A stretch of DNA of 64,000 nucleotides from Chytridium lagenaria (Eukaryota > Chytridiomycota > Chytridiomycetes > Chytridiales > Chytridiaceae), in NCBI GenBank assembly GCA_025449115.1, contig JAHLKC010000020.1, positions 186,001-250,000 on the forward strand, written 5' to 3'. This document shows positions 34,907 through 63,500 of the stretch, piece after piece. A program made the position numbers and the translations under genes. The notes below the pieces were generated by a model. That model did no database searches and was not told the origin of the DNA. It was given only the letters and a program-made list of their open reading frames with translations. Numbering within the stretch: the first letter of the stretch is position 1; the number at the start of each line of letters is the position of its first letter.

Positions 34907-35430
34907 ATGTCCATCTCCGTCATGTCCACCCCTTCAACCTTCACCTCCCAATTCTACCAGACGTCAATACCTTCCCTCGCCACGATTACTACATCAGCTT
35001 CCCTCTCTACGACGACTACAGCGATCACCAGACCTACCAACACCACGTAAGACTCTTTCTAATACCTAAGCGGTTAAACTAAACATGTTAAAGCAACATC
35101 CCCCAAACCTCCCCATCTCCCATCCTCCCCTCTCCACCGTCTCCCAATGGTCACAACACTGTATCATCCTGGCTCCGCAGCTGCGGCATAGAAGAATCCA
35201 TCATCCGCATCTTAAACCGTAAGTCATCCCGTTTTCTCATTGACTTTTACTCAACCATTGCCTTTTTTTAGATGAGGATGTGGATGGACGGAAACTCCTT
35301 GCTTTGAGTGAGGCAAGGCTTGAGATGTATGGGATTACGGGTGATATGAGGGCGTGTATACTTAGTCATGTGGATTGGTTGAGACGTGATATTCGGAGAA
35401 GGACGATGGGGGAGGTGGAAGTCGTGTAGT
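34907..35430 (+). CDS. SAM-domain-only member of the receptor-like family
   Basis: Three exons are resolved: 34907-35046, 35094 to about 35219, and about 35273-35430. The first encodes a Ser/Thr-rich leader (TITTSASLSTTTTAIT). The other two form a SAM domain: VSSWLRSCGIEESIIRIL, then after the intron EDVDGRKLLALSEARLEMYG and ILSHVDWLRRDI. SAM domains mediate homo- or hetero-oligomerisation. The intron falls at the same place as in the other family members, just before the x-x-D-G turn. Unlike those, it lacks the Cys-rich domain, membrane helix and PPxY tail, so it is a truncated paralogue or a soluble partner. It is convergent with the next gene, with overlapping ends. Confidence 0.7.
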
Positions 35431-36970
35431 CGTGTCGATGGAGTGTAGAGATATATACCCGTTTATTTTTGTAATATATTAGTTTGACGTCTCGTGAAGT
35501 TGTTTTTGGGTATAAAGCACGGACATTAAAATCTATACAATGTAGACCGTTTAAATCATCACAAACAAAAGATATGCTATCCCATCCTATTCTATTTTTT
35601 CTATGTAAATTGGGTATATAAATACAAAACAGAGATTCAACAACGGTATCAAACTCCTGCGCCACATAAGGCGGAGGTGCCATCTCACTTTGCGTTTTCA
35701 CAACAGGTCGTACCCTCACCCCATCCGAAGTAGAAGGTTGCGAATGCATACTATTCCTCAACTCATCCACATTCTGAATCATAACCTTCCGTAACGTCTC
35801 ATCCATGATCCCATACACCCTTTCAAGCGCAGAATCCGTGAGAAAGAGGAGTAACCTCCCATCCAGGTTTTGATCTACGTGTTTCATTAAAAAAAGGGAG
35901 GGGGAAGGGGGCGTACCGTGAAATCCTGCAACGATTTTATCATCCCAACCGGTTTCCCGCATCCAGGTGGCGACTTGATCGGGATCCCAGTCTTCTACTG
36001 ATGGTGAGGGGGTGGGTTGGGTGGATGGGTCTTGACCGTCTTTGAAGAAAATGGTCGGAGGGGGAGAAAAGATGGGGGGGTGGACCGGTTGTGGGTTTTG
36101 TGAGACCGCCATGACGCATCAGGGGGGTGTGGAGACGTCTCTAAACATTTTGGAGCCAGTGCGGCGGATGGGTGGAGGTGCCTTTAACATAATATTTTAA
36201 TTAAAGAGAGTGTGTGATGAAGTTGAGGATCAAGATGGGACTTACTGTTATAATACTTGGTGCGTCGCTAATACCCGAATCCGACTCTGTATTCCCACCA
36301 TTTCCTCGTTCAAACGAATCGATTTCACCATCTCCACACGTCTCTTCTTTGATCGTCTCCAAAGCACCACCGCTATCGACACCCCAACCGCAAGAAGCGA
36401 CACAGGGGTCGCAATGGATACCGCCAACATGGTTGACGAGATACCGGGACGATCTAAATGTTGTAACGGAGGGTGAAGGTGATGGCGGGATGACTGAGAA
36501 AACCGGAGAATTCAGGTACATGGTTGTTTCCCACGAAATTCCCCAAACGATCCCGCTGTGAATGGTTAATCCATGGTTGAACATTGAGCTTTACGTTTGA
36601 AAAAACCGTTGTAATCGTACACCCCGTTTGTGCGTGATGATTCATCAATGTTGACGGGACTACTGTAGAGAGAACATGGATCACCCTCTTTGCTTCCACA
36701 TATGATGGCTGCGCAGGCTACACTGGATGCGCAGATGGTTTTAGCGATGGTGGAGTTGGGGCGGGTGCATGCGTCTGGGAATATGGTGCAACCGTCCGAG
36801 AAGGGAGTGGAGTTTTGGAGGGCGATGGTGCCGGGGAATGAAAGGTAGGGGTAGATGTCGCCTAAAAATGTGAGGGATGTGAGGGATGGTGAGTCGGATG
36901 ATGAGGATGATGAGGTTGTTGAGGACGTGGTTGAGGATGTTGTTCTTGAGGACGTCGTTGAGGAAGACAT
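35366..36970 (-). CDS. Receptor-like membrane protein: Cys-rich domain, TM helix, SAM domain, PPxY
   Basis: The N-terminus is a Ser/Thr run, followed by the Cys-rich domain (TICASSVACAAIICGS, then CSLYSSPVNIDESSRTNG) ending in YDYNGFFK. A 39-nt intron (36556-36594) follows, then a stalk, a membrane helix (VSIATPVSLLAVGVSIAVVL) with a basic stop-transfer (WRRSKKRR), and the SAM domain (WDPDQVATWMRETGWDDKIV, then DQNLDGRLLLFLTDSALERV). Near the C-terminus is APPPYVAQ, a PPxY motif. The open frame continues about 75 residues past it to 35366, unlike the paralogues, so the true end may be nearer 35600. One-base frame shifts occur in the stalk. No classical signal peptide is seen, so the membrane helix may act as a signal anchor. 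Confidence 0.75.
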
Positions 36971-38325
36971 GGTTTGGAGATTTGAAAAGTGAAAGTGACA
37001 CAGTGTGTTACTGAGCCTTCATCCGTGCGAAATGCGTTGTGGTCTGTGATGGTGGGTGAGGTACGCATCCTGATCATCTGTGCGTACTGGATGTCGTGGT
37101 GTGATTTACAATGTGAGAAGATAATGAGTGACAACACCAAAACAACGACATGGCAGCCAAAGCACAGAAGTAATGCACTGATCTAACAGGCTAGGCTCAC
37201 CATGTCTCCTAGATGGACTGGGTGAAGTTACAATTTCACTGCAGACACTGATAACTTTCAACTACACGGGAGTGCGACCAGCTAATACGTTGACTCATTG
37301 TCAGCGATTTCATACAAAGTGATGATGGGGGAATGCTTGTTTGAAGTATGAATCAACAGCTTTCTCTACGATATCCTTCATCACACCTGCGTATATATAA
37401 ACAGCATAAATGATTGCGTACATACTGTATTATACAGTTTCTTCCGCTTATCGCATTTACACCATCAAATCAACGGAGAAAAAGGAGTCTGTGATAAGTT
37501 AAAAAAGCACCTTCCCGCCTCATATTCAGTTTCTACTCAAAAAAGAAAACAAAAGGCAAATACAAGACATGACAAAAAACTTAGAACGAATACCGTAATG
37601 AACATTCTGGTATATTTGATATAAAAAGACTTTTTTTCTGACTCTGTGGGCGAGTTCATGGTATACTGTCCTTACACATTTTTGTTTTTCATCATGTCGA
37701 ACCTTCTGTTGGACTTTTCATTCAACGTCGCCTTGGCAGGACAAAGAAGAAATGCGTACGGTTTGGTGAGAATACCCTCATTATTGTTATAAACTGGTGA
37801 TTTAACAAAGCAGAAAGTAGAACCTTGAGGATGCATTTTTAAACCCTTCGGAAATGTCAACTTTGACTATATAGGTGCAGACGAGTGGAAGAGATATGTC
37901 AAAGGGTATTTATTATAAATACCCACATGGATGAATCAAGGGGCGCATCCAGTGAAAAGGGGCTTTGGAACCAGCCAAAGTCGCCATGGAAGAAGCGGCT
38001 TTGGTGGTACAATGTGGTACATTGAGGGCTTAACATGTTTGGAAACATACCGTGCCGCCCAGGGGAAGACCGAAATCTCTGGTTTCATCTGAAACGTAAA
38101 CAAAATTAACAAGAACCTGAAACAAATACATCCCTCTTCTTTACCCTTTACCCCGATTTCTTTAATACCACTATCTTTACATTTTTTTACTCTTTTCTTT
38201 ACCCCATTTCCTTCCACCTTTTCTTTAATACCCTTTACCCCGACTTCTTTAAAACCTATCCCCATAATTCCTTCCACACTTCCATTTATAATCTTTCCCC
38301 CATCTCCATTTCTCTCACCCTCACC
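36971..38325. other. Intergenic region between divergent family members
   Basis: There is no convincing gene. A 62-codon minus frame at 37672-37860 has some protein-like character but no recognisable features. From about 38120 to 38300 the plus strand is pyrimidine-rich, with repeated TTTACCCCGA and CTTCTTTAA blocks directly upstream of the next gene, probably promoter sequence. Confidence 0.4.
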
Positions 38326-39934
38326 ATGTCCACCGGCTACACCTTCATTCCTGGCGTCTTTGGTCTAGCTGGAGCAGGACGCTTCAGAGACCCCGAATGC
38401 GAAGGCTACATTGACCACGGTGCCTGTGTAGCTCCCACCCCGTCCAAAGCGACCGCCATGTGTGATCGCATACCGGAATGCATCGGGTTCATCTGCATGA
38501 ACAGTCAGGTGCATCCTGATACGAGGTGTTTCTTGTCGGCGAATCCGGTCGTCGTCAATGAGTCGGGGAAGACGAGGGGCAGTTTGATCAGAATGGGTTT
38601 TATAAAGGTGCGGCGATGGGTTTGTTTTAGTGGGGTGTTTCTGATGTGTTTTTTTTTTAGATGGGGCGAGTGGGGTTATTAAGGGTGTTGTGACGACTGT
38701 TAGAGCCGTGCCTCCCGCTCCGACCAACACACCGACGGAAGACCCTACACCCAACGATCCAGTTCCTAGCGATCCCCTCCCCACCGAACCAGCAGAGACA
38801 ACCACCGCAACCGCCACCACCACAACCACCACCACAACAACCACCACGTCCATCCTCTCCCAAATCAAGATGACCACCATCCCCCCCATGACCACCATTC
38901 CATCCGACATCTACTCCAACCCCCAAATCGGTGACACCCCGACGCCAACACCCGCCGCCACAAGCTCATCCACCAACGTCGCGGTAGGTGTTGGTGTGCC
39001 GGTTGCCTTTGTGGGTGTGGTTGGAGCACTTGTTGGAGGTTGGATGTGGTTGAAAAAGTCAAAGAGGAAGGGAGGAGAGAAAATGGGGGTGTTTCAACAG
39101 GGAAGTGAAAGTGGGTATCGCGGGCAGAGGGATTCTCCTTCTGAAAAGATGATGTTGGGGTTGGCGTATAACTCTACGCCGTATCATCCTCCTACGACGT
39201 ATAGTCCTCCCACTCAAAGCATGGTACGTTTTTTTTGTTTTCCCGTGATTTCCTTGTGGCTTATATGGCTCCACTAGACATCCGTTTCCATCCCCCAAGT
39301 TTCTTACAACCAAACCATCTCGCACAACACCTACCCCACACAAACCCAACGCCCCTCCAACCACGACACATTTCCTCCCCGCGGTCAAAGCCACCTTCAC
39401 TCCAACGCCATCACGCCCCCACAAACAATCTACACTCAACCCCCGTCCACGCTAGGCCGCATCCCCCCAAATCATCCCAACCAAACGCACCAGCACGTCA
39501 AAAGAACCTTCAACCTCCATGTTCTCACATCACGCTACATCCTCTCCCCATTGGTCATTGCAACCCGGCGCAACCGCGGACCCACACATGCCGTGTATGA
39601 GTGGGACAAGAATGCTGTTCGGATGTGGATGAAACAATGTGGTGTTGACGAAAAAGCCATTCTACGTTTATACGGTACGCGTGTTTTTTGTATCCTCCCT
39701 TCTGACTTTTTTTTGAATAGATGAAGGTATGACCGGTCAAACCCTTCTTCTCCTCACCGACGCGTCTCTGGCACAAAACTATGGATCATGAACCCGTCGC
39801 ATCGACAATGTGTTCTTGAGAATGTGGATAGATTGAGAAGGGAGATTCGGGATGGACCTGTGCCGCCTGTGAGGAGTCCGGGGGCTTCTGGGAGTGATGC
39901 TGCGCCGCCTCCTTACATCCCTCCTTCGTATTAA
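38326..39934 (+). CDS. Receptor-like membrane protein: Cys-rich domain, TM helix, SAM domain, PPxY
   Basis: The Cys-rich domain runs from 38326 (FRDPECEGYIDHGACV, then CIGFICMNSQVHPDTRCFL) to the FDQNGFYK motif at about 38590. That motif is one base out of frame after a GGGG run. The next exon (from about 38661) has a Thr-rich stalk, the membrane helix (VAVGVGVPVAFVGVVGALVG) and a basic stop (KKSKRK). After an intron near 39223-39278 a long linker leads to the SAM domain (WDKNAVRMWMKQCGVDEKAI, then GQTLLLLTDASLAQNYG). A further one-base shift at about 39783 precedes NPSHRQCVLENVDRLRREI and the tail APPPYIPPSY. It is the most complete member with the longest cytoplasmic linker. SAM suggests oligomerisation; PPxY suggests binding to WW domains such as those of Rsp5/NEDD4 ligases. 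Confidence 0.8.
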
Positions 39935-40440
39935 AGGCTTTGAACACTTTGTTTTGCTTGTGTTTTTTTTGGGTAATAAATAATCTGAATGTGAGGTTTT
40001 AAATGGGTTATAGGGTTTAATGTATCTCAAGAAGACGCATGAATCGACGCTGTATGATTTGGATGAGCTTGGGGAATTGAGATCACTGGCTTGACACTTT
40101 GGACGCAACTCGCCGACTATTAGTGTCTTTGTTTTTTTTTTGTCCAAGAAAAGAAAGAAAATGAAAAGCCCAGCGATGAAACCATATGTCATGTATCCAA
40201 CCAAGCCAACCATAATAAAGTTAAAAACTAAAAAAATGAATAGAATTGTCAGGTCTATCGTCTCATGTCTGCCCCCTCACTGATGGCGTGGCATGTCAGG
40301 CACAAGTGAAAAGGAGGGTGGTATTTATAATAGGGAGGTTTCAGGGCAACTCCCTAGTTTCACCCCTCAAACTTGATATCCCCTCCATCCTCATATTAAT
40401 ATCACATTCATCCCACTTCTCCCCAACGAAAAAAAAAGAT

Positions 40441-41757
40441 GGCCAACATCACCTACACCTTTATAGACGGCGTCTACCCGCTCCCAGGCACCGGTCTCTT
40501 CAGGGACCCCGGCTGCGATGGCTACTCTGTGTTCTTTGAAGGATTCGCAGCATGCACCGTCAAGAACAGCGCGGCGGCCAAAGTGCTTTGTAATCTGAGA
40601 GATGTCTGCGCAGGGTACTTGTGTTTGAACACGGAGGTGCATAAAGATGATCCGAGGTGTTTTTTGATGGCGAATCCTTTGAATATGACGCAGAGTGGGA
40701 GGACGAGAGGGGTGTTGGATCAGAATGGGTTTTTTTAAACGTGAGGCATACTTTTTTTCTTTGTTTTGGAGGGTGGTGATTTGGGTTGGGTGTGGTGTTG
40801 AGAGGTTAATATGGTGTTTCTTTTTTTTCTAGCGGGAGCATTGGAATCATCAAAGGCCAAGAAACCACATTTGGTCCCATCCCCACCGCCACGTCCCCAC
40901 CCGACCTCATCATCGTCATCGTCGTCGTCATCGTCATCATCATCCAACTCTAGTCTTCCCCCTACAACCCTCGCGATCGCCGTTGCAGTCCCCATTGTTC
41001 TCATTCTCCTGATTGCGGGTTACTCATTGGCTGGATGTGGATGAAGAGGATCAAGGCCCGGGAGGCGAGTGTGTTGAAGGTTGAGAGTGGGTATGGTGGT
41101 GGTGAGACGGGGGGTTCTGGGATGTTGAAGAGTGTAGGGAAGACTGGGGAGATGCAAGTTCAGCCGCAAATGCCTCCATACCAAGGACAAGGATCGGTGA
41201 GTGACTCTTTTTTGTTCAGGTCGTGGTGTTTATGATGTTAATGCGGATGAATGTATTGTGTAGATGAACACCTCATACCAAGACGCTGCGTCATCCTCTG
41301 CGTCGACACCACCTATTGCACGAAAAGAAAGCATGTCAAAACAAACGGTATCGCACCTCTTTTCAAGCCCGCAAAAGGTGTATGAGGAAAAGGAAGCCCT
41401 TCCTGTCGCGTTCACCTGGGACAAGGATGCAGTGACAGATTGGATGCGGGCTCTTGATATTGACGAAAAGGCCGTATTACGATTGAACGGTAAGCCTTGG
41501 ACTTTGTTTTTTTCTATATTACAATTTTGACTGACTGGAATAACATAGATGCCAATTTGACGGGTCCAAAGCTCTTGTTCTTGACGGATGCCACGTTGGA
41601 ATCGACGTATGGCATCTTGAATGAGACCCACCGGAGAAAGATCTTGGAGAATGTGGAGATGTTGAGAGCGGATGTGCAAAAGACGCCTGTTGCACCCCCT
41701 CGCAGGGATGGTGTGAGGGATGAGCCCGCACCGCCGCCCTACCTCCATGCGGCATAA
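40441..41757 (+). CDS. Receptor-like membrane protein: Cys-rich domain, TM helix, SAM domain, PPxY
   Basis: It starts MANITYTFIDGVYPLPG. The Cys-rich domain (FRDPGCDGYSVF, then CAGYLCLNTEVHKDDPRCFL) ends in LDQNGFF. A run of seven T where paralogues imply six puts the expected Lys out of frame. The next exon carries a poly-Ser stalk encoded by a TCATCG-type microsatellite (about 40905-40950) and the membrane helix (TTLAIAVAVPIVLILLIAGY). The SAM domain is split by the family intron: WDKDAVTDWMRALDIDEKAV, then GPKLLFLTDATLESTYGI. The tail ends APPPYLHAA, a PPxY motif six residues from the end. It lies in tandem with its neighbour 500 bp upstream. Confidence 0.8.
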
Positions 41758-42469
41758 TACTATTCTAGTAATAACAACAGAGTTTATCAATGTATAACTT
41801 TTCCCTCCTCATTCCATTAAATAAATAAATAATAATAATTAATAGATACAACCATGACAACCACCAACTGGTTACACCATGACAATCATTAATAGATAAT
41901 GAATGAATTAAAAATAAATAATTCTCTTGGGGTGTAAACACCAAGAGTAGACCAACCTCTTAAAATTTATGGGTAGGGTCGGAGATAGGCCAATAAAGAA
42001 GCAAGAACAGTAAAGTGAGGCGTTCCGCAGCCAATCAGAAGAGGAGATTCGGCGTCCAGAAGGGCAGACAAGGGTCGGATAACAAGGGTGAGTCCATTGT
42101 TGCACAAACTGAAAGTAAATGGAGATATGTCATTGGGTAAAAACTGATAAAAATGTTCTCATTGGACGTTAGAACACTACAAAAGAATATTTTTTGTACT
42201 ACAAAACTCTAATTTCTTGCGTTCAGAAACTACTTGTTTTGTACAACCGTGCAACGTACTACAAAACCCTGAGGAGAGGTGGAAGGAGGAGAAGAAAAAA
42301 AAATCGGGAAAGATATGGGTGGAAATAGAATAAAATAAAAGAAAACAGTGAGGAGTTGTCAAAAGTCACGTGACTTGAACTTGTCTGTGTAACCGCAGGT
42401 CCTGATGTCGGGAGGATACTGATTAGTTTTAAGGAAAAAAATCCATACATTCCTCTGAATCGTTTTTAC
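41758..42469. other. AT-rich junction between receptor array and mobile block
   Basis: AT-rich sequence with TAAA/TAAT repeats near 41815-41850 and a direct duplication of ATGACAA-type segments near 41850-41900. The first degenerate palindrome of the mobile block lies at 42401. The left end of the element is probably here but I cannot define it. Confidence 0.4.
42401..42412. repeat. Palindrome copy 1 (degenerate)
   Basis: CCTGATGTCGGG; one arm has T for C, which still allows a G-U pair in RNA. Leftmost copy of the family. Confidence 0.5.
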
Positions 42470-43961
42470 ATGGATCGCTTCGGTCGTCCCATTCACACCT
42501 GTGTGAATCGCCATTCACACTGCTGTCCGGCGTGTCATGTTCAGGTTTCCTCATGCGAACACTGTCGACCGCTTACTATCCATGTGCATACATGTGGGGA
42601 TGGGAATGAAAAATGCTGCGAATTGTGTCATGTTCAAGTTATGCGCTGTGGTCGCTGCATAGACGTGCCAGTCATTGCTTCTCCGTCTGCTGCCAATACT
42701 GTTCGCCGGAGTTGGAGAGCAACAATCATGCCTTCTGTGGCCCAAACATGCCGTCGTTGTAACTCCATGGAATCATTGTGTTTCTGCATTGATGGGATAT
42801 TGGGTATTCGGCATCGCACTCCGACGTCTACCATAGATAAATCAACAGTCTGTATTGGGCGAAGCTGTCAAAACTTCACCAAAGCGTCAACGGTTGTTTG
42901 ATCCCGATGAATTTGACAGGAACCGCAATAATGCTCATCGTCATCTACTATCGGTCGAAGACGAATTGGTAATGGCTGATACCGGGCAGTTCACAATACC
43001 TACCAGTGATACACTGAGAAGTATCACAGAACAGGCTGTAAACGCTTTACAAGCTGATACTCTTGACTCATTAGTGTGCGCTGTGTGCGAATTATATCAT
43101 TCGCAGAGAGAAAGCGTTCTCATCGATCCTACGCCATTCTTGCAAGTATGTTATTACTGCTGAATCAACTAATATGTTCAAGGAATGGAAAGAACTTCTT
43201 GCTCCCCCGTCCAACCTACCTGAATCTCTAATTAACGACTATTGTGCGAAGGAAATATCTTCTAGTATTTCTGATATGATGTTACAACGGCAAGGTATGT
43301 CATTTCAAATTTCTCATATGACTGCGTTAACGTTCAAAGGAGTTTCTAACTACGACGGAATCCCTCTTCTTCGCCTTTGTGCCGAGTGTAATCAGTACCT
43401 GGTGAATACAAGACCGTCGAAATTGCCTCCTAACAGTATATGCAATGGGAATTATATCGGGCACCTTCCGGAGCAGTTCCACACACTTTCCCGATCCGAT
43501 GAGATGCTCTTGGCACTTGCTACTCCAGTATGCAATATAACTACAGTGACGCCGAACAAAAATGGGAAATCCGAAGCCATACTTACCTCGTGAAGAATAC
43601 AGCTGGTCCTTGACAGCTCTTGTTCTCGAGACATAACATCTGTGTGTCGAGTAACTTCGTTGGATCTTCACGCCCCGTCAATTGCATTTCTAAACGCCGT
43701 TACGACATTCAGTTAGACAATGTCGTGATATGTTAACGTTTCTTCGCATCAATAATTCTATGTATTCTGCTCAAGAATTATCCGAGTTCACCCTCCATCC
43801 ACTACGCCAGGTATGGACAATGATTGATTTTCGGTTTGAACCCACATCCGCATTCCCTTTTTATTTCCCGACATCGGACCTCCGGTATCAATTGTATTTT
43901 ACCATTCGGTGTATGTTGTTCGTTGGTCTGATTGTTTTTACACAATTCTTTCCTTTCCGTC

Positions 43962-43977
43962 CTCCCGATGTCGGGAG
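43962..43977. repeat. Palindrome copy 2
   Basis: CTCCCGATGTCGGGAG; perfect 7-bp arms, centre TG. It lies within the Helitron-like coding region. Confidence 0.8.
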
Positions 43978-45552
43978 CGTTGCCAACCCATATTATGTTG
44001 AGAATAATTTCATACCCTATTCTTCTTGTGCTTACCAGTTTGTGTAGATATTTATGCGTACGCGAAGATCATTCTGACGATGTCGATTTCGATGTCGAAC
44101 TCGCTACCCACCACATACCTCACGACAGTCCCTCTTTGTCTCATGTGATACTACCTTGACCGACCCTCAACTGTCGTCTTTTGTCTTGACCCAGACCCCT
44201 GTAGATCAGATCCTTTATTCTTGGTTCGGATTCTAATCGGACGGAATCCTCGTGGGAATGGACAGAGGTCGTTAGAATGTTCCAACATTGTTTCCCTACG
44301 GTCGTGGCGGTCCGTCTGAGTATCGTCTTCAAAAGTTGTCACTGATACATTGGATTCGCCGCGCTTTACGCGTCTATGGTCGTCGATTCGCCATTCATTA
44401 CGCTTTTGCTGCTTTCGCATTTGATAAGATCGCTACTCAGGCGGCTTATCGAAGTCTTAGTTGTACTTTAAGGTAAGGCGTCGTGTTGCTTCCAATTCGA
44501 CGTTAACAGCTGCCCTGGTTGAAAGAGCTCTTCGCGAGATAGAGACTTATGCCGTGCGATCTCGGTTCGCACTTCAAGGACTTTCCCCGGAATCAGCCGG
44601 AACCGTCGCATCCGTCGATTCTCTCCGACGTGGTGTTCAAGCTGGGGAACAAACGTTCCGGGATCTAATGCTTCGTCGGCGCGTGGGCGTCGGGAAGGTT
44701 TCGCTGTCGTTCGTCGACTTGGACAGGCTCACGTTTTCCTGACGCTAACTCCAATTCTGTTGGAATTACTCCATCGGTGTTCTCGCGGTCTCATATCCCA
44801 TCGTCCTCACAGCTTTTCACCCAGCTCTTCCGGGTGATGACCTCTTGAGGAGTGTTGTGAGAGGGAATTCTTATGCTACGGCGTCGTACTTTGTTCGATG
44901 TCTCAATGTTTTGATAGATGATGTTCTAGGCTTTGATCGGCGCTACGGGAGATCTAAGGCTAAAGGCGGTATTTTAGACACGTCGATAATTACCTTTGTT
45001 CCATTGAAACGACCAAACGAGGTGACCTTCACGCCATTTCGTTATTTGGTTGGTCGGAATGCCTCGTACTCACTCAGCCTATATCACCTCACTGCGTAAC
45101 GACACTTTCCGACAGCGTCTTTGCAACCTCCAAGATCCATAGGAACGTGTTGTCCCCCAATTTTCCGATTTGGGCTTGCGTCAAATGCTTCTCATCTCTC
45201 GGGCTGTCCGAGTATCGCGTGCACTGGTTCGGTTTTACCGACTCCTTATCCGGTGAAGTGTACACCTACAAGAAGGAAGGTGTCCCTGTCATTCCCCTGT
45301 CGAGATGCATCGAGTGTGATCGGCATTACGGTGATTCTGAGTTGTATTGGGAGCGCTGGCGATATGCTTGCCTTTCCGCCGGTGTGAATGGAAAAGATAT
45401 GCAAGATGAACTGCCTTTCTTTTTGTCCGCTCCACCGTCGATGACGTACGTATCGCGAGCCCCTAAAGTCCAGCTCTTGCTCGCGTTGGCAATCCTAAAG
45501 GTTCAATTCCATAAATGGTCACACGTGGCAAGTTGTTTCAAGGTACCTCGAC

Positions 45553-45585
45553 CTCCCAAAGTCGGAGACCTCCCGAAGTCGGGAG
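45553..45585. repeat. Palindrome copies 3a and 3b, tandem
   Basis: A degenerate copy (CTCCCAAAGTCGGAG, 45553-45567) is followed two bases later by a perfect one (CTCCCGAAGTCGGGAG, 45570-45585). They sit in the open frame, adding Pro/Lys/Gly residues. Confidence 0.8.
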
Positions 45586-46942: not shown

Positions 46943-46958
46943 GTCCCGACCTCGGGAG
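46943..46958. repeat. Palindrome copy 4
   Basis: GTCCCGACCTCGGGAG; one outer mismatch, centre CC. It lies where the frame passes from the Rep-like part to the helicase part. Confidence 0.75.
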
Positions 46959-52488: not shown

Positions 52489-52569
52489 AATGATACAACA
52501 TATCTCTTATTTCTTTATCCAGATGGGCTCCTGGGCGGTTATCACCTCCATTCAAATTGGTTCTTAAGC

Positions 52570-52585
52570 CTCCCGAGGTCGGGAA
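52570..52585. repeat. Palindrome copy 7
   Basis: CTCCCGAGGTCGGGAA; one outer mismatch, centre GG. Located just after copy A's stop. Confidence 0.75.
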
Positions 52586-52642
52586 ATATTATCCAAATAG
52601 GCTCCTAAACGGTTTCCACCTCTGTCATCTTAGTTATTGAGC

Positions 52643-52658
52643 CTCCCGAAGTCGGGAG
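52643..52658. repeat. Palindrome copy 8
   Basis: CTCCCGAAGTCGGGAG; perfect arms, centre AG. The flanks of copies 7 and 8 are also alike (CCAAATAGGCTCCTAAACGG versus CCAGATGGGCTCCTGGGCGG), so a roughly 75-bp unit was duplicated in tandem. Confidence 0.8.
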
Positions 52659-52720
52659 ATGAAATACAACCAGATCGATACTTTCAACACCGTCTATAGA
52701 CTCGTGGCATGTCTCCCACA

Positions 52721-52736
52721 CTCCCGAGGTCGGGAG
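52721..52736. repeat. Palindrome copy 9
   Basis: CTCCCGAGGTCGGGAG; perfect arms, centre GG. Third of three copies spaced 73 and 78 bp apart. Confidence 0.8.
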
Positions 52737-53976
52737 ACATCAAAACAAATCAGATCTTTATATATATTCTAAGTAATTGGTCCTTCCTCCTATTACACAA
52801 CCTTTCGTCAATCATCCATAACAACCTCTTCACAACGGCCAGCTACTATTTAGTTAAGTAAAGGTGTGCCCGTTTCGTATACGCTGTGCCTGTATGTAAA
52901 GCATACACGTAAGAGCTTGGATTCCGTGTGATTAGGTGAACGTACAGCATTGGGGCTCCAGGGGTTTTCCTTTCACGCTTGCTAGTTGCGTTGTGTGTTC
53001 CGTTTACCTAAACGCTAAAAAGTGCATTTATGCTCTACTCGTTGTGCCTGTCCTGAAACCCTCGTCGCTAAGGATCACCCACCTATGTCTGCCAACTGAC
53101 ATTATCTTGTTTTCATTACGTACGCCCGTCGTCTCGTTATCGAAACTGTCACATCGTAATGTTCTCAATGATGTTTACCCGTGCATCGTTACTCCCTGAC
53201 CGCTGTAACGACAGCTTCGTTGGTACAGACCCTTGGCATGTTGTGCTCCATTAATGATCCACGTTGTCCATGGTTTACATAGTATGGTCTCGCACAACAC
53301 TCTCTCACCGCGATGTTCGCTTCACTATTGATCCTTCATCGGCTGCAATACCCTTGCTATACTCTCCTCGACCGTTCTTCGTTTTAAGCTTGTTATTTAC
53401 TTCCTTTTCATCCTTTACTTATGTTATTCGACTTTCCCTTTGCGATTATATAACAACTTCATCATGGAATAACGACTGAATCTTTTGTCATCGTTCCTTT
53501 ACTCTGTCTTCATCAATATCACTCCGTTCGTACCTCTAATTCGATAAACTCCCTTGCGACCGATATTCCTCGTCGCTTCGACCACTCCCTCCTAAACTGT
53601 TGGTAAAATTCCTTTTCCTCTCAATCATCAGTCTTCATGACTACGATCCAATTTCTTTCTCTTCATTCTTCCTTGTATACACCTTCCTCCTCTCAATCTC
53701 TTCGTCTAAGGCTTCCGTGTCCCCCCCCCCGCCCTCCATTACTTACCCCCGTCCTATTCTTCCTTCGTCCCCATCTCTTCGTTCTTTTTCTTTCTATACT
53801 ACTTCTGATACCCTCAGTCTCATGCTTCCGTCTCCCCCTTATCGGACCTCATATACTTATCCACTTCCTTTTCTTTTTTTATCCTCCTTCCCGTCATTTC
53901 TTCTCCTCTTTAACTAACTCTCTTCGAATTCAGTTCACGATTCTATTTCAACTATTTCATCCCTCAAAAGTTGGAC

Positions 53977-53993
53977 CTCCCTGATGTCGGAAC
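53977..53993. repeat. Palindrome copy 10 (degenerate), at copy B start
   Basis: CTCCCTGATGTCGGAAC; a diverged copy that contains the likely ATG of copy B (53984-53986). Confidence 0.5.
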
Positions 53994-55613
53994 GCCACTC
54001 AGATGACAACCGTCCTACTTCTTCTGAATCCACGGTCCCTGACACCTCCGTTCCACACCCCCTGTTTCCCCTCACGTCACTTTGCTGAACGAGTTTATGG
54101 CAAGTCGGTGAAGGTAAACTATATTATCCGATATTAGTACGTAGTAATGTCTTCAGTCACCTACGAATAGTAGAAACCTTTCACTTTTCACTCAGTGCGC
54201 TTTGTTCGTCAAGACACCGTTCAGAACACCAACATCCTCATCCTCGCCTCGCTCTCATTATGAACAAGCTCTGGTACCCCCGGTGAGGATAACGTCGAAG
54301 ACTTTCAACGCTCAATACTTCTTCTGTTGGACGGACGGCCAAGCTCGAAGCATATAAAAACGGCCCTTAACAAGATTATCGACCCCGAACTTTGCTCCAG
54401 TACGGATCCTTCGGACTTCGGTTACTGGCCACGTCGACTTTCCCCTCATGTCGACTTCCAAACAAACGTCAAGTTGTTTTCTCCACTACTGCATATCTAA
54501 CTCCTTATCTCTTGAACACCAGCGCCGTCTGGGACCACTGGGTTACAACTTGGGGACCTCAACGCATTTCCTTGAACTCTATTCTCAATCGCTGGAAGTC
54601 GATACCGTCGATCGACCTGGTAAACGGAAGGCGTCTCATACGGATAGTAAGACCCATAAGAAGTTTAGGTGAGTACATCCTCTAACAATTTCTCTTCGTC
54701 TTCTCTCCATCACTCCATGTTATGAACATTTCACTACTCCTGCATCCTACAGGACGACTTCCTCGCCGGGTCTGTCAAACACCGCCGTATTTTACTTACG
54801 AATTCTCGACTCGCTTCTCTTCACTGCGGCGAAAAACTGTCCTCAAAGTTCAGACCAACGATGCAACACCCTCCGACAATACTACCGGATCTGCTTTACC
54901 CGACACCGATGGCTTCGTCCCCGTTCTTACAATACCTGAGTAATGACTGTCCGATTCTGACTACTCAGGTGTCCTCCATCTTCGCCACATCCATCGAGTC
55001 GGAGGTCGAAAACCTCCCCGCCACCGTCGCTAACCACTTCGTCTGTGTGGTTATTCCATTATTTCAACTATTATCTAACCACCTTTAGATTAACACTATA
55101 ACTAACCGACCAAAGCCTCCGTCCTCGGGAGCAAGCCTCGTTGGACGGACTTCGACAAAAGTGTTATGCGAGATATTATACAGTCGTGGCGTGACTGTTA
55201 CTTAGGAAAACACGGACTCTCCATTACTCCAAAGCTGATTCCGTTACAATCACTTACACTTCGGACTCCCCTCTCCCTGCCGGTTCACCCGTCATGAAAA
55301 CCATAAAAGGTATCTTCCTCCAACCCCTTGAAACACGCTTACATCATTAAGTTATGGGAACTTATCTAGGTCCCGCCAAACTTCTTTCTCTCACATCCAC
55401 CTCAATGTGCTCCGCCGTGCCGCCTTTGCATTTAACTGAGCCGTACTCACTCGAGGTATTCATTACATTTACCTAATTAAATTAACTTCTTCCTAGATGG
55501 TCATCGATGAATTCGACGTCATCACCGTGCTCACTCGTTCCCCTATCGACAGCCACACAGGTTTACTGTGTCTTACCTGTGACCACTCCAAATGCGATTG
55601 TAGAGCCCCCTGA
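53984..55613 (+). pseudogene. Unknown protein, copy B of the duplicated gene, decayed
   Basis: Segments match copy A in order: HFAERVYGKSVK (near 54085), SILLLLDGRPSSKHIKTALN (near 54320), IIDPELCSSTDPSDFGYWPR (near 54380), VWDHWVTTWGPQRISLNSIL (near 54530), GKRKASHTDSKTHKKFR, SIESEVENLPATVANHFVCV (near 54990), IIQSWRDCYLGKHGLS (near 55170) and VIDEFDVITVLTRSPID (near 55500). Stops and one-base shifts separate them, so as read it is broken. The protein is more alike between copies than the introns and spacers, implying past selection. The closing segment has three Cys and one His (CLTCDHSKCDC) that copy A lacks in that form. Confidence 0.6.
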
Positions 55614-56013
55614 TGACATCCTGAATAAATTGCTATGCTAATGCCTATCGAATCTCTCTTATCCATATCCTTCTTAGTAATTAATGTATTCATCCTACTA
55701 ATCTCATATTCTTTTCCACGAAACACCCCAAGAGATCTCGGCGAAGCCCTCCCAGTAGTAAATATATAATAATAAAAAGAAACTTTTCCACTGGCACCTT
55801 GCCTCACTCACTCTTCCATGGAAATTAAACTTTTACTGTAATACAATACGGAATGGCGTCTCCTTGAAACAGTCACACAACTTGAACAGACAATATAATT
55901 AAAAAGACACTTTTTATGTTTTCTATTACATAAACGTTATTTATTATATTTTAGTTATACGTTGATGTAATTTATTTACTCACTCACTCATTAATCAACC
56001 ATCACCTCTGGTT

Positions 56014-56152
56014 TATTCATTCATTCATTCATTCATTAATTCACTCTTGCCAAATTCACTATTCATCTATACTATACATCCATCCATCTATTACTATACT
56101 ATACTATACATACTATACATCCATACTATACTATACTATACTATCCATCCAT
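56014..56152. repeat. Microsatellites before the receptor-like gene
   Basis: Six ATTC units lie at 56014-56037. An ACTAT-type array with interspersed CATCC units follows at about 56071-56152, ending 10 bp before the ATG of the next gene. It therefore lies in that gene's leader or promoter. Confidence 0.85.
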
Positions 56153-56162
56153 ACTCCAAAGC

Positions 56163-57666
56163 ATGTCCTCCACTCAATACCTCTTCTTCCCAGGATCATA
56201 CGGGCAACAAGGCACAGGCACCTTTCAAGATGACGCCTGCGAAGGATACATTGACACTGGAGGTTGCGTCACACCTGACTCTACCGCTGCACGTCGCATC
56301 TGCTCTTACCGCAACGAGTGTGCAGGCTACATTTGCATGAACAGTGATGTGCATCCGGATAAACGATGCTTCTTGTTTGCAAATCCATTGCTGATTGATG
56401 AGAGTGGGAGGACCAATGGAGGGTATGATCAGAATGGATTCTTTAAAGGTGAGAAGTGTGGCAAATATGGTCGGGGCATCTATACTAATTCTTTCCTCTT
56501 TTTTTTTCTTTTTCTTTTTTCTTTTTTTTTAAATTTGTTGTTATTGTATGTATATTATAAGTGGGATCTTTTGGAACTATTCGAGGCGTGGCGACGACTG
56601 TTGGGGTGACTGCTACACCTGCTCCTGCCCCTTCCCCTACTCCTTCTTCATCACCACCTCAACCATTACCAGAGAACCCCATCACACCATCATCAGTAAC
56701 CCCCGCAAATGACCCTCCACCCATCACCGACCCTTCCATCTCTGTCATCACCATCACAGCGGAAGGCACCCAAGCCATCATCTCCACCATCGCCATCCAA
56801 CCCTCATCCCTCTCATCCATCCCTCCACTCCATAACGTCATCTCAACCTCCCAAAACCCTCTCTCCTCCCCTTCCTCCTTCACAGCCTCGCTTCAGACCT
56901 CCCTCCCATCCTCCTCCTCCATGTCTCCAACAACCATCGCCATCATCGTCACAGTCCCCGTCGGCATCATTGCCCTCATCCTCGCAGCCCTCGTCGTCTG
57001 GATGTACACTCGATTAAGAGCAACTCAAACCTCGGAGCAGAAAATACATTATACCCAACCAACCCCTACACAAAAGAGAACACCCGTCGAATACCATTCA
57101 TCAGCGCCTTCCGTTACAGTAAGAAGCCCTCATTTTTCTTCTTGAAAAACTAAACAATATCCCTTAGCCACCTTCTTCATCCCTATCACCTCCATCACGT
57201 CCCAATCCACCAACATTATCATCATCACCACCACCACCCGTCCAAACATGGAAAGACTTGACCGCGTCCACATTTACACCACCCCTCTCATCAACAACCC
57301 CTCTCCAACCTCCTCCAAACTCTCTCTAGACCAATGGACGCCTCAAGACGTCTCCACCTTTCTCCGCACATGCAACATTGACGAAAAAACCGTCATTTTA
57401 TTAAACGGTAACCTTTCCCCCCCCTCCAATTCCATATGCTCATGTCTTTTTTTTATATTCTTTTTGTAGATTCAAACGTGGATGGAGTCGCGTTGTTGTA
57501 TCTTTCGGAAAAGACGTTGATGGGGTTTGGTGTCAAGAAGGAGGAGACGAGGAGGATGATTTTGGGGTATGTGGATACCTTGAGGAGGCATGATGGAAAG
57601 AATGAAGAGGTTTTGGGAGATGGTCGACCACCTTCTTATGCGTATGTGAATGGGACGAGTGGATGA
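56163..57666 (+). CDS. Receptor-like membrane protein: Cys-rich domain, TM helix, SAM domain, PPxY
   Basis: This is the cleanest member. The Cys-rich domain (FQDDACEGYIDTGGCV, ICSYRNECAGYICMNS, PDKRCFLFANPLLIDESGRT) ends in YDQNGFFK at about 56445. After an intron a Pro/Ser/Thr stalk leads to the membrane helix (TTIAIIVTVPVGIIALILAA) and a basic stop (YTRLRATQ). A linker exon follows, then SAM: WTPQDVSTFLRTCNIDEKTV, the family intron after LLN, and GVALLYLSEKTLMGFGVKKE. The tail RPPSYAYVNG contains PPxY. About 400 residues once spliced. The N-terminus has no clear signal peptide, so topology with the Cys-rich domain outside is inferred from the stop-transfer charges and the position of SAM. 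It lies just right of the mobile block. Confidence 0.85.
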
Positions 57667-58130
57667 TGAAGATTGGTTTTTCGTGGCGTGCTTTTATGAA
57701 TTTATAGAGGTTGATGAGAGGCACAACAAAAACAACGCATTGAAAATATATACCATCCATGTGTTTGGAGCCTGGGAAAGTTAGTTTGGATCATAACCCT
57801 GACTGTCTTACAAGCATGCTAGTAAACTTTAACTTTACCAGCCATAATTAGTGTTACCAAGAACCATGTAGTTCGTGTGTTACTACCTTTGTAGACAAGC
57901 CCAGCCCGGACCCACTCGTCGCATATTCAAACTTGCGAGTCACCTCAATCCCACGCGACGAGACATTCTTGGGTGATGTTACATGGTATGTCGTGGATTC
58001 GTGCATGCCGCGACGGTGAGGAGTTTCATATCATGTATATTGATAAAATAGATTTATAATTCGCTTTTATTCAACTGCAATAAGGAAATGAGGCGGGAAC
58101 CCAACGGATACCTCAAAGCCATAATTTTTT
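57667..58130. other. Intergenic region
   Basis: It separates the convergent receptor-like gene and Kazal gene. No gene or repeat is seen. Confidence 0.4.
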
Positions 58131-60283
58131 TTATAACAGGAAAACACCAACCCCCATCATCGTCATCATCACCCTACTCGCCGTATTTTCAAAACCCCGA
58201 CTCACCACAATCCCACCATCCTTCGATGCCGTCCTCACACCCCTCGTCGTTGTCGTCATCCCACAACTCCCTTTATACAAAACCCTCAACCCCTCCATCC
58301 CACACGCTGCATTCCTCAACTCACATTCACTTCCATACGTGATTCCGTTGGATCCGCAAACAGGTGCACCGGGGAGACACGCGACGAGGCATTCTTGGGT
58401 GGGGTTGCAGGGTCCGTCGTGGAGTTTGGTGAGAGTAGAGTCCTTGCATGAGTCGATGGCGAGGATGCATGCGTTGTCGTAGGTTTTGCCGTTGGATCCA
58501 CAGACGGGTTCAGCGATGGCGGGACATGTGGTATCACATTCGCATTTTCCTTCATGCGCAACAATGAGTCCTGGAATCCCGCATGCCTTGTTTCGTAACT
58601 CGCATGCACTGCTGTACGTGATTCCGTTGGATCCGCAAACGGGGGTATCGGGGAGACACGCGACGAGGCATTCTTGGGTGGGGTTGCAGGGTCCGTTGTG
58701 GAGTTTAGTGAGAGTAGAGTCCTTGCATGAGGCGATGGCGAGGATGCATGCGTTGTCGTAGGTTTTGCCGTTGGATCCACAGACGGGTTCAGCGATGGCG
58801 GGACATGTGGTGTCACATCCGCATGTCCCTTCATGCGCAACAGTGAGTCCTGGAATCCCGCATGCCTTGTTTCGTAACTCGCATGCACTGCTGTACGTGA
58901 TTCCGTTGGATCCGCAGACAGGGGTATCGGGAAGACACGCGACGAGGCATTCTTGGGTGGGGTTGCAGGGTCCGTCGTGGAGTTTAGTGACATTAGAGTC
59001 CTTGCATGAGGCGATGGCGAGGATGCATGCATTGTCGTAGGTTTTGCCGTTGGATCCACAGACGGGTTCAGCGATGGCGGGACATGTGGTGTCACATCCG
59101 CATTTTCCTTCATGCGCAACAATGAGTCCTGGAATCCCGCATGCCTTGTTTCGTAACTCGCATGCACTGCTGTACGTGATTCCGTTGGATCCGCAAACGG
59201 GGGTATCGGGGAGACACGCGACGAGGCATTCTTGGGTGGGGTTGCAGGGTCCGTTGTGGAGTTTAGTGAGAGTAGAGTCCTTGCATGAGGCGATGGCGAG
59301 GATGCATGCGTTGTCGTAGGTTTTGCCGTTGGATCCACAGACGGGTTCAGCGATAGCGGGACATGTGGTATCACATCCGCATTTCCCTTCATGCGCAACA
59401 ATGAGTCCTGGAATCCCGCATGCCTTGTTTCGTAACTCGCATGCACTGCTGTACGTGATTCCGTTGGATCCGCAGATGGGGGTATCGGGGAGACACGCGA
59501 CGAGGCATTCTTGGGTGGGGTTGCAGGGTCCGTCGTGGAGTTTAGTGAGAGTAGAGTCCTTGCATGAGGCGATGGCGAGGATGCATGCGTTGTCGTAGGT
59601 TTTGCCGTTGGATCCACAGACGGGTTTAGCGATGGCGGGACATGTGGTATCACATCCGCATTTTCCTTCATGCGCAACAGTGAGTCCTGGAATCCCGCAT
59701 GCCTTGTTTCGTAACTCGCATGCACTGCTGTACGTGATTCCGTTGGATCCGCAGACGGGGGTATCGGGGAGACACGCGACGAGGCATTCTTGGGTGGGGT
59801 TGCAGGGTCCGTTGTGGAGTTTAGTGAGAGTAGTGTCCTTGCATGAGGCGATGGCGAGGATGCATGCGTTGTCGTAGGTTTTGCCGTTGGATCCACAGAC
59901 GGGTTCAGCGATGGCGGGACATGTGGTATCACATCCGCATTTCCCTTCATGCGCAACAATGAGTCCTGGAATCCCGCATGCCTTGTTTCGTAACTCGCAT
60001 CCACTGCTGTATGTGATTCCGTTGGATCCGCAGACGGGGGTACCGGCAAGACACGCGACGAGGCATTCTTGGGTGGGGTTGCAGGGTCCGTTGTGGAGTT
60101 TAGTGAGAGTAGAGTCCTTGCATGAGGCGATGGCGAGGATGCATGCGTTGTCGTAGGTTTTGCCGTTGGATCCACAGACGGGTTTAGCGATGGCGGGACA
60201 TGTGGTGTTGCAGATGGGGATGATGCTATGACGGATGTTGTGGCTGCGAGGATGGTAAGTGCGTTGATGAGGATGGAGATCAT
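58131..60283 (-). CDS. Secreted multi-Kazal serine protease inhibitor, 14 domains
   Basis: In the frame that continues to a stop at 58131, each repeat encodes two Kazal domains. One has CPAIAEPVCGSNGKTYDNAC ... GPC; the other has CLPGAPVCGSNGITYSSAC ... GKC. CGSNGxTYxxxC is the Kazal signature. Kazal domains block serine proteases such as subtilisins and trypsins; the residue two after the second Cys usually sets specificity. I count seven of each type. The start at 60283 encodes a signal peptide (MISILINALTILAATTSVIA) in a frame one base off the Kazal frame, the switch falling at a CCCC run near 60210. A longer 655-codon frame from the same ATG lacks Cys and is a by-product. The C-terminus ends in a short hydrophobic stretch (SRVMMTMMGVGVFLL), possibly a GPI-anchor signal. 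Confidence 0.88.
58345..60200. repeat. 279-bp tandem repeat (two Kazal domains per unit)
   Basis: Between six and seven head-to-tail copies are almost identical, with only scattered substitutions. The unit is exactly 93 codons, so any frame open in one unit stays open through the array on either strand. The near identity points to recent expansion or gene conversion. Confidence 0.95.
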
Positions 60284-61976
60284 TGCTGGGATGGTAACTT
60301 GAAGAGTAGGTTTTGGTTGTAATGTAGAGGTGTGTTGTTTGAGACTGGTTCTGTTTTTATACCTTTTTTTTTTTGTCTCCAGCCAGCATGTACTGGGACT
60401 GTTTTATTGTTTTTCGCCCAGTCACATAAAATCCCAGTCATTTCGTTTGGGCTGATGGAAAAAACCTCACGATTCCCTCTTAACACAAAGCATGGATATG
60501 ATGAGGCTCGACAAGGACGTTTTCTTAGAATAAAAATGTGATCAGTCCTGGAGCTTTTATTATTTTTTAAAATTATATGACCCCCTTTTTAGTTATAGTT
60601 AATGACCAACCTTATACCTTTAAAAAGCGCCGTAACTCTGTCACGCTGATCTCCTCCACGTCACGCGCTCCGTAACAAAAGACCCCAACATGGAAATCTC
60701 CCAAGAGTGCTTTTTTTTTTTTTTTCGCTTGCTTTTCCCTTCATGCGCTGATGTCTGTCTTCAAAAAAATCACCTGAACTTGTTCTTTTGGAGGTCATCC
60801 AATATCTGTATCTCTGCATCCCACTTACCGACTCTTGCGACTTTGATAAGAACGACCGTGCTGGCGGAGCATAATGTCATTTTTACATTAACAAAGGTTG
60901 ACAGATGATGTAACATGCGTCACTCACGATGACCTGTTTCTGCTAGCGAGCTAATGGTGGAGTCACTTTTGAGAGTGATTATAAGTTGCTCCAGACACTT
61001 GTGAGGAGAAGCGTTGAAGGGACGGTGACGTTGAAGACAATGGTAAGCATATGTGTACACCAATTCCGGTAAGGGCTTGTGATCCGTGACCGGTTCCAAA
61101 ACTGATGGTGTAGTGTTGATGACCTGGGCGCTGTTGAAGTTTTTCGACGGGATGGTTACGGATGGCTTCTGTTTACTTATTTTTTGATATGACCACGTAT
61201 GTATCCACCGTCATATCTTCCTTTATTTTTTTAACTTGTCTTTCAACCCCTATATATTTTCAAGTATCTTCAAAGTGTTTCCAATAACGAAACCAGGGAA
61301 CGTAATCATAGAAAGGGGCTCGAAACCAAATTTACCCCTAATTGCCATCGACGCTGCAACAACGGAAGTGAGAAAAGTGGAATATCACCGAGACGGGATG
61401 AACTCATTGTACTATTTGACATTTTAAACAACGATACTAGATTCGAGCTCATTTTAAATCCTGGCTTCATTTCACCTTACATAGTTAAGGGCTATCCGTA
61501 ATCCTTCTGATGGTCATTCAAGAAAAGACCTGAGACACAGTAAAGGTATCTCAGCTTAGGAACAACCATCCCGTTTTTCCCTTCCCCTTTTTAATTTCCC
61601 TTTTTCGCCTGGATTTTCACTTCATTAGCCTAAAAACATGGCAAACGTCATCCAGGATTAACGCCGTCAAATGAACCCAAAATAAAGTTGGCTTAAATAC
61701 TTCCACGGTAAAATGTTAAGGAGTATGCACTGTAAACGTTTAAAATAATGTAAAAAACTGCGCACGTATGCGCACCCCCTTAGAGCTGCCCTTGTTTCAG
61801 ATAAAGAAAGTCCATCCGCTCGAAGACGTAATGCGCTAAAATTCTTCTGAAACTGACTCCGTATTTATTCTTCTCATTGAGATCCTTTTCTTTTCCTTTC
61901 TTTTATAACATCACAAGAAAAAAACCTGGGTTCTTCAACAGTACCATCCTTCTACACACATGTCCGTCTCGAGTAC
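60284..61976. other. Intergenic region
   Basis: About 1.7 kb without a supported gene. It contains T homopolymers (near 60365 and 60710) and AT-rich stretches. Short open frames have no recognisable features. The 61870-61950 part is pyrimidine-rich and probably belongs to the next gene's promoter. Confidence 0.4.
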
Positions 61977-63500
61977 ATGTATATTCCTGGCTCCTACGCC
62001 TTGATCAGTACAGGAAGTTTCACCGATGACGCCTGCGATGGCTACTCTGAATCAAACGGTTGCGTCTCACCCAACCCTACGGCTGCCAAGTATCTCTGCG
62101 ACAGGCTCTCTGAATGCGCCATGTATACCTGCATGAACAGTGACGTACATGTAGGCGATACACGATGTTTTTTGTTTGCGAACCCTTTGGATATTGATGA
62201 GAGGGATGACGGATGGGGCGTATGATCATAATGGGTATTATAAAAGTACGGAGATAGAGTTTGTTTGTTTTGTTGTTTTCATTTTTGTACTGACGCCCGC
62301 TTTCTTTCTTTCTTTCAACTTTTTTCAGTTGGTGCGTTTGGGGTTGTAAAGGGCGTTACGACGACGATTGGTGTTGCGCCCGTGACGGCTGCGCTGTAAC
62401 AGTTGCACCGACTTCTACTACTGTCGCTGTCGAGCCTTACCAATATCGCCAACATCTCCACCATCCCCAATCTCTTCCATCCCCCCACTCCCCCCGCAAT
62501 CACACAAAGAATCACCATCACCGTTGACGGCACCATCTCCACCATCTTCTCCACCCTCCCCATCGTCACATTAAATCCAACCCACCTTCCCCTAGTTCTC
62601 AACCCACTCTTGTCGAAACACCCCTCGCCATCCAAACGACCCCTTCACACCCGCAACAGCCATCGCTAATCCACTCAAATCATCACCCAAATCACCTCTG
62701 ACAATATCTCCCCATCCACTCTTGCTCTGTTCATCGCGGTACCTGTGACCGTTGTCGCGTTGATACTGGGAGCCGTTGTTGCTTGGTTGTTTGTGAGAGT
62801 TCAAAGACGCGTGGACGTGTCAAACGCGTATATCAAGGAAACGTATGCCAAGACCGATGATGAATCTATTGAAACCATCAGTGATATGTCAACAGCACCT
62901 GTTTCAATCCCTTCTACACCTGTCACGCGTCAACCACTGAAACAACAATTCCAGTAGTGGTACGTCATTATTCACTTGAAATCATAATGTTCTACTTTGT
63001 ATAGCCACGCGTCAATAAGTTGTTTCAGAACTCTCTTCAACCCCGAGTTTCTGGGGGACTCACGAAATCCGATACCGCAAACATCTTCTCATTATCAACC
63101 TCCCAGTTTCTCCAAGACGACGACACCGCAGCTTCGTCCCGTACGTCCATCGACGACTGGAGTGCAGAACAAGTCGCAGATTATCTGAGTGGATGTGGCA
63201 TTGACGAGAAGATTGTGAACCATTTTTACGGTAAGAAAAAAAACTCCTTTCTCATTTTTTGTTCCTCACGTTTGACTGCTGTTTTGTCTTACCCGTGTTT
63301 TCTCTTAAGACCAAAACCTGGACGGCGAGCAGATGCTTTTACTCACGGATGATGCGCTCGTCAATCTTTATGGTATCAAGAATGGGAATGTGAGGAGGAC
63401 GCTTTTGGCGCAGATTGAGATGGTTAGGGAGGTTGAGGTTCAGGAGGGTCGTGCGCCTGTTGATGATGAGACGGAGGAACGGGCACCGCCTGTTATGTGA
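61977..63500 (+). CDS. Receptor-like membrane protein: Cys-rich domain, TM helix, SAM domain, PPxY lost
   Basis: The Cys-rich domain starts MYIPGSYALISTGSFTDD and has CDRLSECAMYTCMNSDVH and TRCFLFANPLDIDE. The YDHNGYYK motif at about 62225-62250 is one base out of frame. The next exon begins VGAFGVVKGVTTTIGV as in the paralogues, and the stalk again changes frame near 62395. The membrane helix (LFIAVPVTVVALILGAVVAW) and basic stop (RVQRR) follow near 62730-62810. SAM (WSAEQVADYLSGCGIDEKIV, intron, DQNLDGEQMLLLTDDALVNL) ends near 63430. The C-terminus is ERAPPVM: the PPxY Tyr is lost. An upstream ATG near 61961 in another frame may be the true start if an indel lies there. Confidence 0.78.

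Follow-up and report, generated by a model that had tools for sequence, protein, structure and literature searches.

Eph receptors are single-pass membrane proteins in which an intracellular SAM domain is followed by a short terminal binding motif, a PDZ-binding end. A different short motif, PPxY or LPxY (together [PL]PxY, here PY), is recognised by the WW domains of NEDD4-family ligases (PMC8509885). For fungi, a 2010 survey counted as a leucine-rich-repeat (LRR) receptor a protein with one or more LRRs and a single helix; it found such receptors wholly absent in 45 of 49 genomes, was left with five examples, none with another functional domain, and raised the question of how fungi perceive microbes (PMC2939053). 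Here we analyse a 64,000-nucleotide stretch of the chytrid Chytridium lagenaria (the window; C20:186001-250000, where C numbers denote contigs) that holds a cluster of six SAM genes, A to F, together with their relatives in the searched genome (41.9 Mb, 356 contigs), whose 23 matches to the Fungal_trans family accord with this source.

Genes A to E combine an N-terminal six-cysteine domain, a stalk rich in proline, serine and threonine, one membrane helix followed by basic residues, and a SAM domain. The helix, SAM and PY module also sits behind leucine-rich-repeat exons elsewhere in the genome, and because one tail is reused in this way, we suggest that it serves as a receptor-like chassis on which outer parts can be exchanged. 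The family is real, larger than first seen and unnamed, and of a single-pass receptor-like kind. We give a probability of about one half to the reading that these proteins are single-pass receptor-like molecules with a ligand-binding outer part, a SAM domain for clustering or docking, and a PY motif through which a ligase would drive their removal. Among the titles and abstract starts listed in literature searches, none dealt with this architecture in a fungus.

The gene cluster in the window

An earlier note on this DNA had described five genes sharing a cysteine-rich domain and its closing motif, and this was borne out. Searches with tblastn placed the cysteine-rich domain at five places in the window and SAM halves in six genes, and the domains of A to E were mutually similar (E about 5e-6 to 1e-32), closing with YDYNGFFK in A, FDQNGFYK in B, LDQNGFF in C, YDQNGFFK in D and YDHNGYYK in E. 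The helices of A to E have a Kyte-Doolittle 19-mer mean of 2.2-3.0; the 15 residues after them carry a net charge of +2 to +6 in A, B, D and E, and 10 of 10 complete helices examined were followed by net positive charge. The curated Pfam SAM cut-off (PF07647/PF00536) was reached by five of the six genes, with SAM_2 in A (23.1 bits), C (26.3), D (26.2) and E (29.6) and SAM_1 in F (26.5 bits), while the SAM of B, read from its haplotype copy, narrowly missed (SAM_1 22.5 bits against a cut-off of 23). The sixth gene had been called SAM-only, and indeed no cysteine domain, helix or PY motif was seen in F. The claim of four PPxY ends was right as to the motif, present in A (PPPYVA), B (PPPYIP), C (PPPYLH) and D (PPSYAY) and absent in frame from E on both haplotypes, but not as to the end of A, whose frame stays open for 99 codons beyond PPPY, across the strand opposite the last exon of F. 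The features are as follows.

34907..35429, plus strand: gene F, SAM-only; exon 1, rich in serine and threonine, from ATG 34907; ends GEVEVV, stop
35155-35217 and 35274-35393, plus strand: gene F, SAM halves (SAM_1)
36596..36970, minus strand: gene A exon 1, serine/threonine-rich start and cysteine-rich domain (36847-36596), closing YDYNGFFK
36338..36433, minus strand: gene A, membrane helix, then WRRSKKRR
35747..36001, minus strand: gene A, SAM split by a phase-1 intron into two exons (36001-35918 and 35872-35747)
35660..35677, minus strand: gene A, PPPYVA; frame open to 35366, true end uncertain
38326..38606, plus strand: gene B, cysteine-rich domain (38326-38580); frame shift at about 38580, ahead of QFDQNGFYK; open on C270
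38975..39070, plus strand: gene B, membrane helix and WLKKSKRK
39593..39847, plus strand: gene B, SAM (39593-39673; 39723-39785; 39785-39847), frame shift within the second half
39905..39934, plus strand: gene B, terminal PPPYIPPSY, stop
40439..40735, plus strand: gene C, cysteine-rich domain, closing LDQNGFF
40964..41064, plus strand: gene C, membrane helix, interrupted by a frame shift at about 41020
41408..41676, plus strand: gene C, SAM (41408-41488; 41551-41676)
41731..41757, plus strand: gene C, terminal PPPYLHAA, stop
56163..56447, plus strand: gene D, cysteine-rich domain, closing YDQNGFFK
56930..57019, plus strand: gene D, membrane helix
57326..57594, plus strand: gene D, SAM (57326-57406; 57472-57594)
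57628..57666, plus strand: gene D, terminal PPSYAYVNGTSG, stop
61971..62244, plus strand: gene E, cysteine-rich domain (61971-62201), with YDHNGYYK (62221-62244) in another frame; open on C270
62715..62810, plus strand: gene E, membrane helix
63149..63437, plus strand: gene E, SAM (63149-63229; 63312-63437)
63474..63500, plus strand: gene E, terminus EERAPPVM, stop; no in-frame PPxY

Annotated paralogues, the shared tail and its possible partners

The earlier note took the cysteine-rich and SAM parts as one product. At the level of gene models this holds in two annotated paralogues of a second, divergent cysteine subfamily; it does not cover the window copies, and no annotated protein was found for genes A to E. 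P0001 (BC829DRAFT_419616, hypothetical protein, 584 aa; 100% identity and 100% query cover to the C83 paralogue) runs from MSGRNQLNTPGYG through the cysteine domain, stalk, helix and SAM-like domain to the end GPALPVYRD, and P0004 (442 aa), with its parts in this order too, terminates in GPSLPVYQN. In the C83 DNA, one open frame of 555 codons spans the cysteine domain through the first SAM half. On the strength of these two proteins and this frame, we reject the alternative of two separate genes per locus. P0002 is a partial protein that reaches no further than the first half of the SAM. P0003 departs from the SAM frame and has no terminal LPxY; the DNA shows a frame shift at this point, with LPVY beyond it. 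The SAM of this subfamily lies below Pfam detection, and its profile could be aligned over the full length with that of the window SAMs (hhalign E 2.9e-5, probability 73.7%, in a single comparison). Membership of SKG6 was rejected (20.8 bits, where 30 is required), and a match of P0004 to PF06084 (Cytomega_TRL10; 21.2 bits against 20.2), covering stalk and helix, was taken as compositional chance. The subfamily seems to begin with a tiny ATGAG exon and an intron starting GTA in five of six copies read; this exon, seen upstream of a PGYG motif (L033, L035, L036, L037), fits the first residues, MS, of P0001 and P0004. BC829DRAFT_419616 and BC829DRAFT_415334 are named genes on which the proposal can be tested.

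A phase-1 intron lies between the same SAM codons in all 18 genes read, namely A to F, two genes each on C102 and C83, those on C22, C43 and C36, and the LRR group on C18, C202, C206, C39 and C8 (for example F-H-[D]-Q-N-L-D-G in A and F-K-[S]-H-Q-I-D-G in C206). At this point there is no interruption in five further SAM matches of the genome (C32, C71, C22:39855, C12 and C1). The intron also occurs outside the membrane family: C279, a helix-less SAM gene that looks PB1-like by eye, shares the site. After the SAM domain, [PL]PxY occurs in 16 of 19 tails: four of six in the window, one of two on C102, six of six in the second cysteine subfamily and five of five in the LRR group. The LPxY type is represented by LPPY in C102b, LPVY in C83a, C83b, C22a, C43, C36 and P0004, and LPEYS with a stop in C8; the PPxY tails of the LRR group are PPQYS with a stop in C206 and C39, PPPY in C18 and PPQY in C202. 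No such motif was found in the frames read of E, F and C102a. The count leaves aside the C270 copies of B, C and E, C110 (its allele C202, with the open frame, was used), P0001-P0003 (duplicates of C83b, C36 and C22a) and second-subfamily copies with unread ends.

Matches to the tails suggest a family of roughly 40 SAM-exon loci, the window and C102 genes included, with alleles and fragments not separated and most loci unread (C27, C106, C15, C26, C194, C70, C228, C40, C206:34484, C39:3796 and others). The C206 SAM tail had 23 matches in the genome, 16 of them extending to residue 61 or 62 of 62 (the Tyr of PPQYS is residue 61), and the P0004 tail had 15, nine extending to residue 53 or 54 of 54 (Tyr 52), although an alignment can run to the end of the query without the motif being conserved.

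In the LRR group, peptides of the plant-type pattern NxLxGxIP lie on the same strand upstream of helix and SAM in C110 (6), C202 (7), C206 (3), C8 (5) and C18 (1). The pattern was absent from the 2 kb read of C39; on opposite strands it occurred once in C18 and nowhere else, and the 64 kb window had none on either strand. LRR_1 was above cut-off in the joined pieces of C18, C206, C8 and C202, and for C18, with the pattern once on either strand, the LRR call rests on LRR_8 (E 2.7e-9). Four of the five loci (C18, C110/C202, C206 and C8) have LRR peptides and then one helix on the same strand, and sub-threshold LRR_8 matches lie upstream of SAM-exon matches on C26 and C194.

Two genes may encode partners of the tails. 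On C29, three WW matches (159671-160395, minus strand) stand directly before a HECT match (158441-159319, minus strand; E 2.5e-97), and because of this WW-WW-WW-HECT order we assign the gene to the NEDD4/Rsp5-type ligases and propose it as a candidate partner of the PY tails. The PY part of the earlier note thus gains support from the 16 tails and from this gene. On C32, a SAM match scores 51.4 bits, and about 0.7 kb further downstream, in the same orientation, lies a Byr2 Ras-binding match that stays under its threshold (21.7 bits, with a cut-off of 27); this could be a Byr2/Ste11-like SAM kinase, a candidate partner of the family SAMs.

In the mechanism that we suggest, the six-cysteine part, probably PAN/Apple-like, or the LRR part would bind a ligand outside the membrane from its stalk. 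The single helix, N-outside with its basic residues inside, would join it to a cytoplasmic tail, whose SAM domain would cluster the proteins or dock SAM-containing signalling proteins such as the Byr2/Ste11-type kinase. The terminal PPxY or LPxY would then recruit a NEDD4/Rsp5-type ligase, leading to ubiquitination and removal of the clustered protein. The architecture that the earlier note ascribed to surface receptors or adhesins is real and wider than the window, while a surface role and control by endocytosis stay predicted. More tentatively, the genome may hold about 40 receptors on this one chassis, with PAN-like cysteine-rich or LRR outer parts, in which SAM clustering would feed a mitogen-activated protein kinase pathway and a NEDD4-type ligase would serve as the off-switch.

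The outer domain, the broken frames and other explanations

Six cysteines are invariant across 11 sequences of the outer domain from the C. lagenaria genome. The earlier note had allowed that this part might prove to belong to a known family with another role; hmmscan of the 11 members at E <= 1 gave no Pfam match, PAN models included, and a genome search with PAN_4 gave seven hits, none at a family locus. The best match of the cysteine profile among PDB sequences had E 0.46, and Foldseek returned nothing at E <= 0.001. Both domain models, themselves weak, placed chains of SRK and SML-2 at the top as weak matches, and residues 9-92 of the gene D domain resemble PAN/Apple weakly, so that a PAN/Apple-like fold is a weak lead from modelling. 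The domain appears to be an undescribed family, so far found in C. lagenaria alone. A search with spliced gene D gave nothing at E <= 0.001 among 7992 candidates, a list probably filled by its stalk, and one with two cysteine domains gave 138 candidates, all C. lagenaria proteins, by a method that needs shared five-residue words and could let distant relatives escape.

The earlier note was silent on broken frames, and the second haplotype, the paralogues and the LRR relatives lay beyond its view. The stalk, helix, basic residues and SAM domain that it listed are present in A to E, but the frames are not all intact: as assembled, B has one shift in its first exon and another in the SAM, C is shifted where exon 1 ends, where the stalk starts and within the helix, and E is shifted in several places. 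With the splice sites chosen, the frame also seems to be broken in A, between stalk and helix, and in D, between exon 2 and the SAM, and other introns might account for this. Such breaks could mean that the family is expanding and that its copies in the window are pseudogenes in decay, with an architecture that is real elsewhere but inert here; the Helitron-like helicase gene and haplotype rearrangement within the cluster, as well as the lack of annotated proteins for A to E, would fit this. However, C270 (25 kb), a second haplotype aligning to window 37396-41841 and 61321-64000 at 90-97%, has exon 1 of B and E open where C20 is broken, and is itself broken in B's helix, which is open on C20, and in C in many places. 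The haplotypes differ by one- or two-base length changes and substitutions numbering 9 and 41 in B (1587 aligned bases), 29 and 60 in C (1279) and 11 and 34 in E (1519), and the exon-1 allele substitutions in B and E are synonymous in three of three cases. C110 and C202, copies of one LRR member, are likewise separated by short indels. Because both pairs differ in this way, assembly indel noise is the simplest main cause of the broken frames, and some genuine decay may remain; we reject pseudogene decay as the main cause, and consider inert window copies very doubtful.

The receptor-like reading has also to be weighed against two other roles. As adhesins or wall tethers, the proteins would stick to algal, chitin or self surfaces through the outer domain, with SAM strengthening adhesion and PY setting turnover. 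The stalks do resemble those of wall proteins, and no kinase or other enzyme domain was found when the tails of D, C206, P0001 and P0004 were scanned with Pfam, but SAM and terminal PY are kept behind two unrelated outer parts, which points to the inner part as the one whose function is constant, and we regard this role as unlikely. Alternatively, Bsd2/Ndfip-type adaptors use PY motifs to bring a ligase to its cargo, and the family might consist of Rsp5-type adaptors in inner membranes whose lumenal domain or SAM recognises cargo. The frequency of PY and the lack of a visible cleaved signal peptide speak for such adaptors, yet a housekeeping adaptor would not usually be expected to expand to some 40 SAM-exon loci whose outer domains diverge, and this explanation seems quite improbable to us. 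Several points weigh against the receptor-like reading itself. Many of the 16 PY tails are paralogues and so not independent. The motif in a single tail is weak evidence, because shuffled post-SAM tails yield [PL]PxY at 1.5% (A), 17.7% (B), 7.2% (C) and 1.6% (D). The joining of LRR, helix and SAM in one gene follows from exon order rather than gene models. By eye, no signal peptide is visible in P0001, P0004 or the window gene starts, so that either the helix must act as a reverse signal-anchor or a first exon has been missed.

Within the cluster, the haplotypes are strongly different between window 41841-61321 (19.5 kb) and C270 4724-14133 (9.4 kb). Gene D looks haplotype-specific, because its cysteine domain found no match on C270. 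At about 2657-2900, C270 carries a second, partial copy of the SAM end and PPPYI tail of gene B. Between C and D, window 42374-48945 (plus strand) is Helitron-like by eye, with a PIF1-type helicase frame (PF05970) and other long frames. An open frame of 741 codons at 58131-60356 (minus strand) consists of near-identical 279-base repeats with 14 Kazal-type inhibitor domains (Kazal_2 E 5.7e-131), and an additional Kazal-like piece begins at the window edge (64000-63923, minus strand). Outside the cluster, 20048-20743 (minus strand) holds a frame with an RGS domain and 13108-13683 (plus strand) one for an EMC1-like PQQ propeller. An Rfam scan of the window gave nothing at gathering scores.

Comparison with known systems

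The family resembles known SAM proteins in that A, C, D, E and F score above the curated cut-off, and differs in the intron within its SAM and in the scores of B and the second subfamily, which fall under the Pfam cut-off. With Eph receptors it shares the single-pass layout and a predicted intracellular SAM followed by a short terminal motif, but PY replaces the PDZ-binding end, and Pfam scans of D, P0001 and P0004 found no ephrin-binding domain. The likeness to PAN/Apple proteins (S-receptor kinase, SML-2, TgMIC4) is a weak fold match, in which a helix is followed by cysteine-bearing strands. Membrane proteins bound by NEDD4/Rsp5 through PY motifs (PMC8509885) likewise have a PPxY or LPxY tail near the helix, and the ligase gene is present here too; the difference is that PY is joined to SAM and large outer domains, with binding predicted.

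As in the LRR receptors of plants and animals, LRR peptides stand before one helix at four of the five LRR-group loci read, but the tail of the group consists of SAM and PY, and in the one tail of the group that was scanned (C206) neither kinase nor TIR was found. It is an open question how fungal cells detect other organisms at their surface, and with tens of SAM/PY tails, those read lying behind cysteine-rich or LRR outer parts, this family may be the route used by C. lagenaria. If the more tentative reading of about 40 receptors on one chassis is true, the notion that Fungi essentially lack LRR receptors would have to be qualified, and the family would be a fungal counterpart of the recognition-receptor families of plants and animals, built without a kinase or TIR tail.

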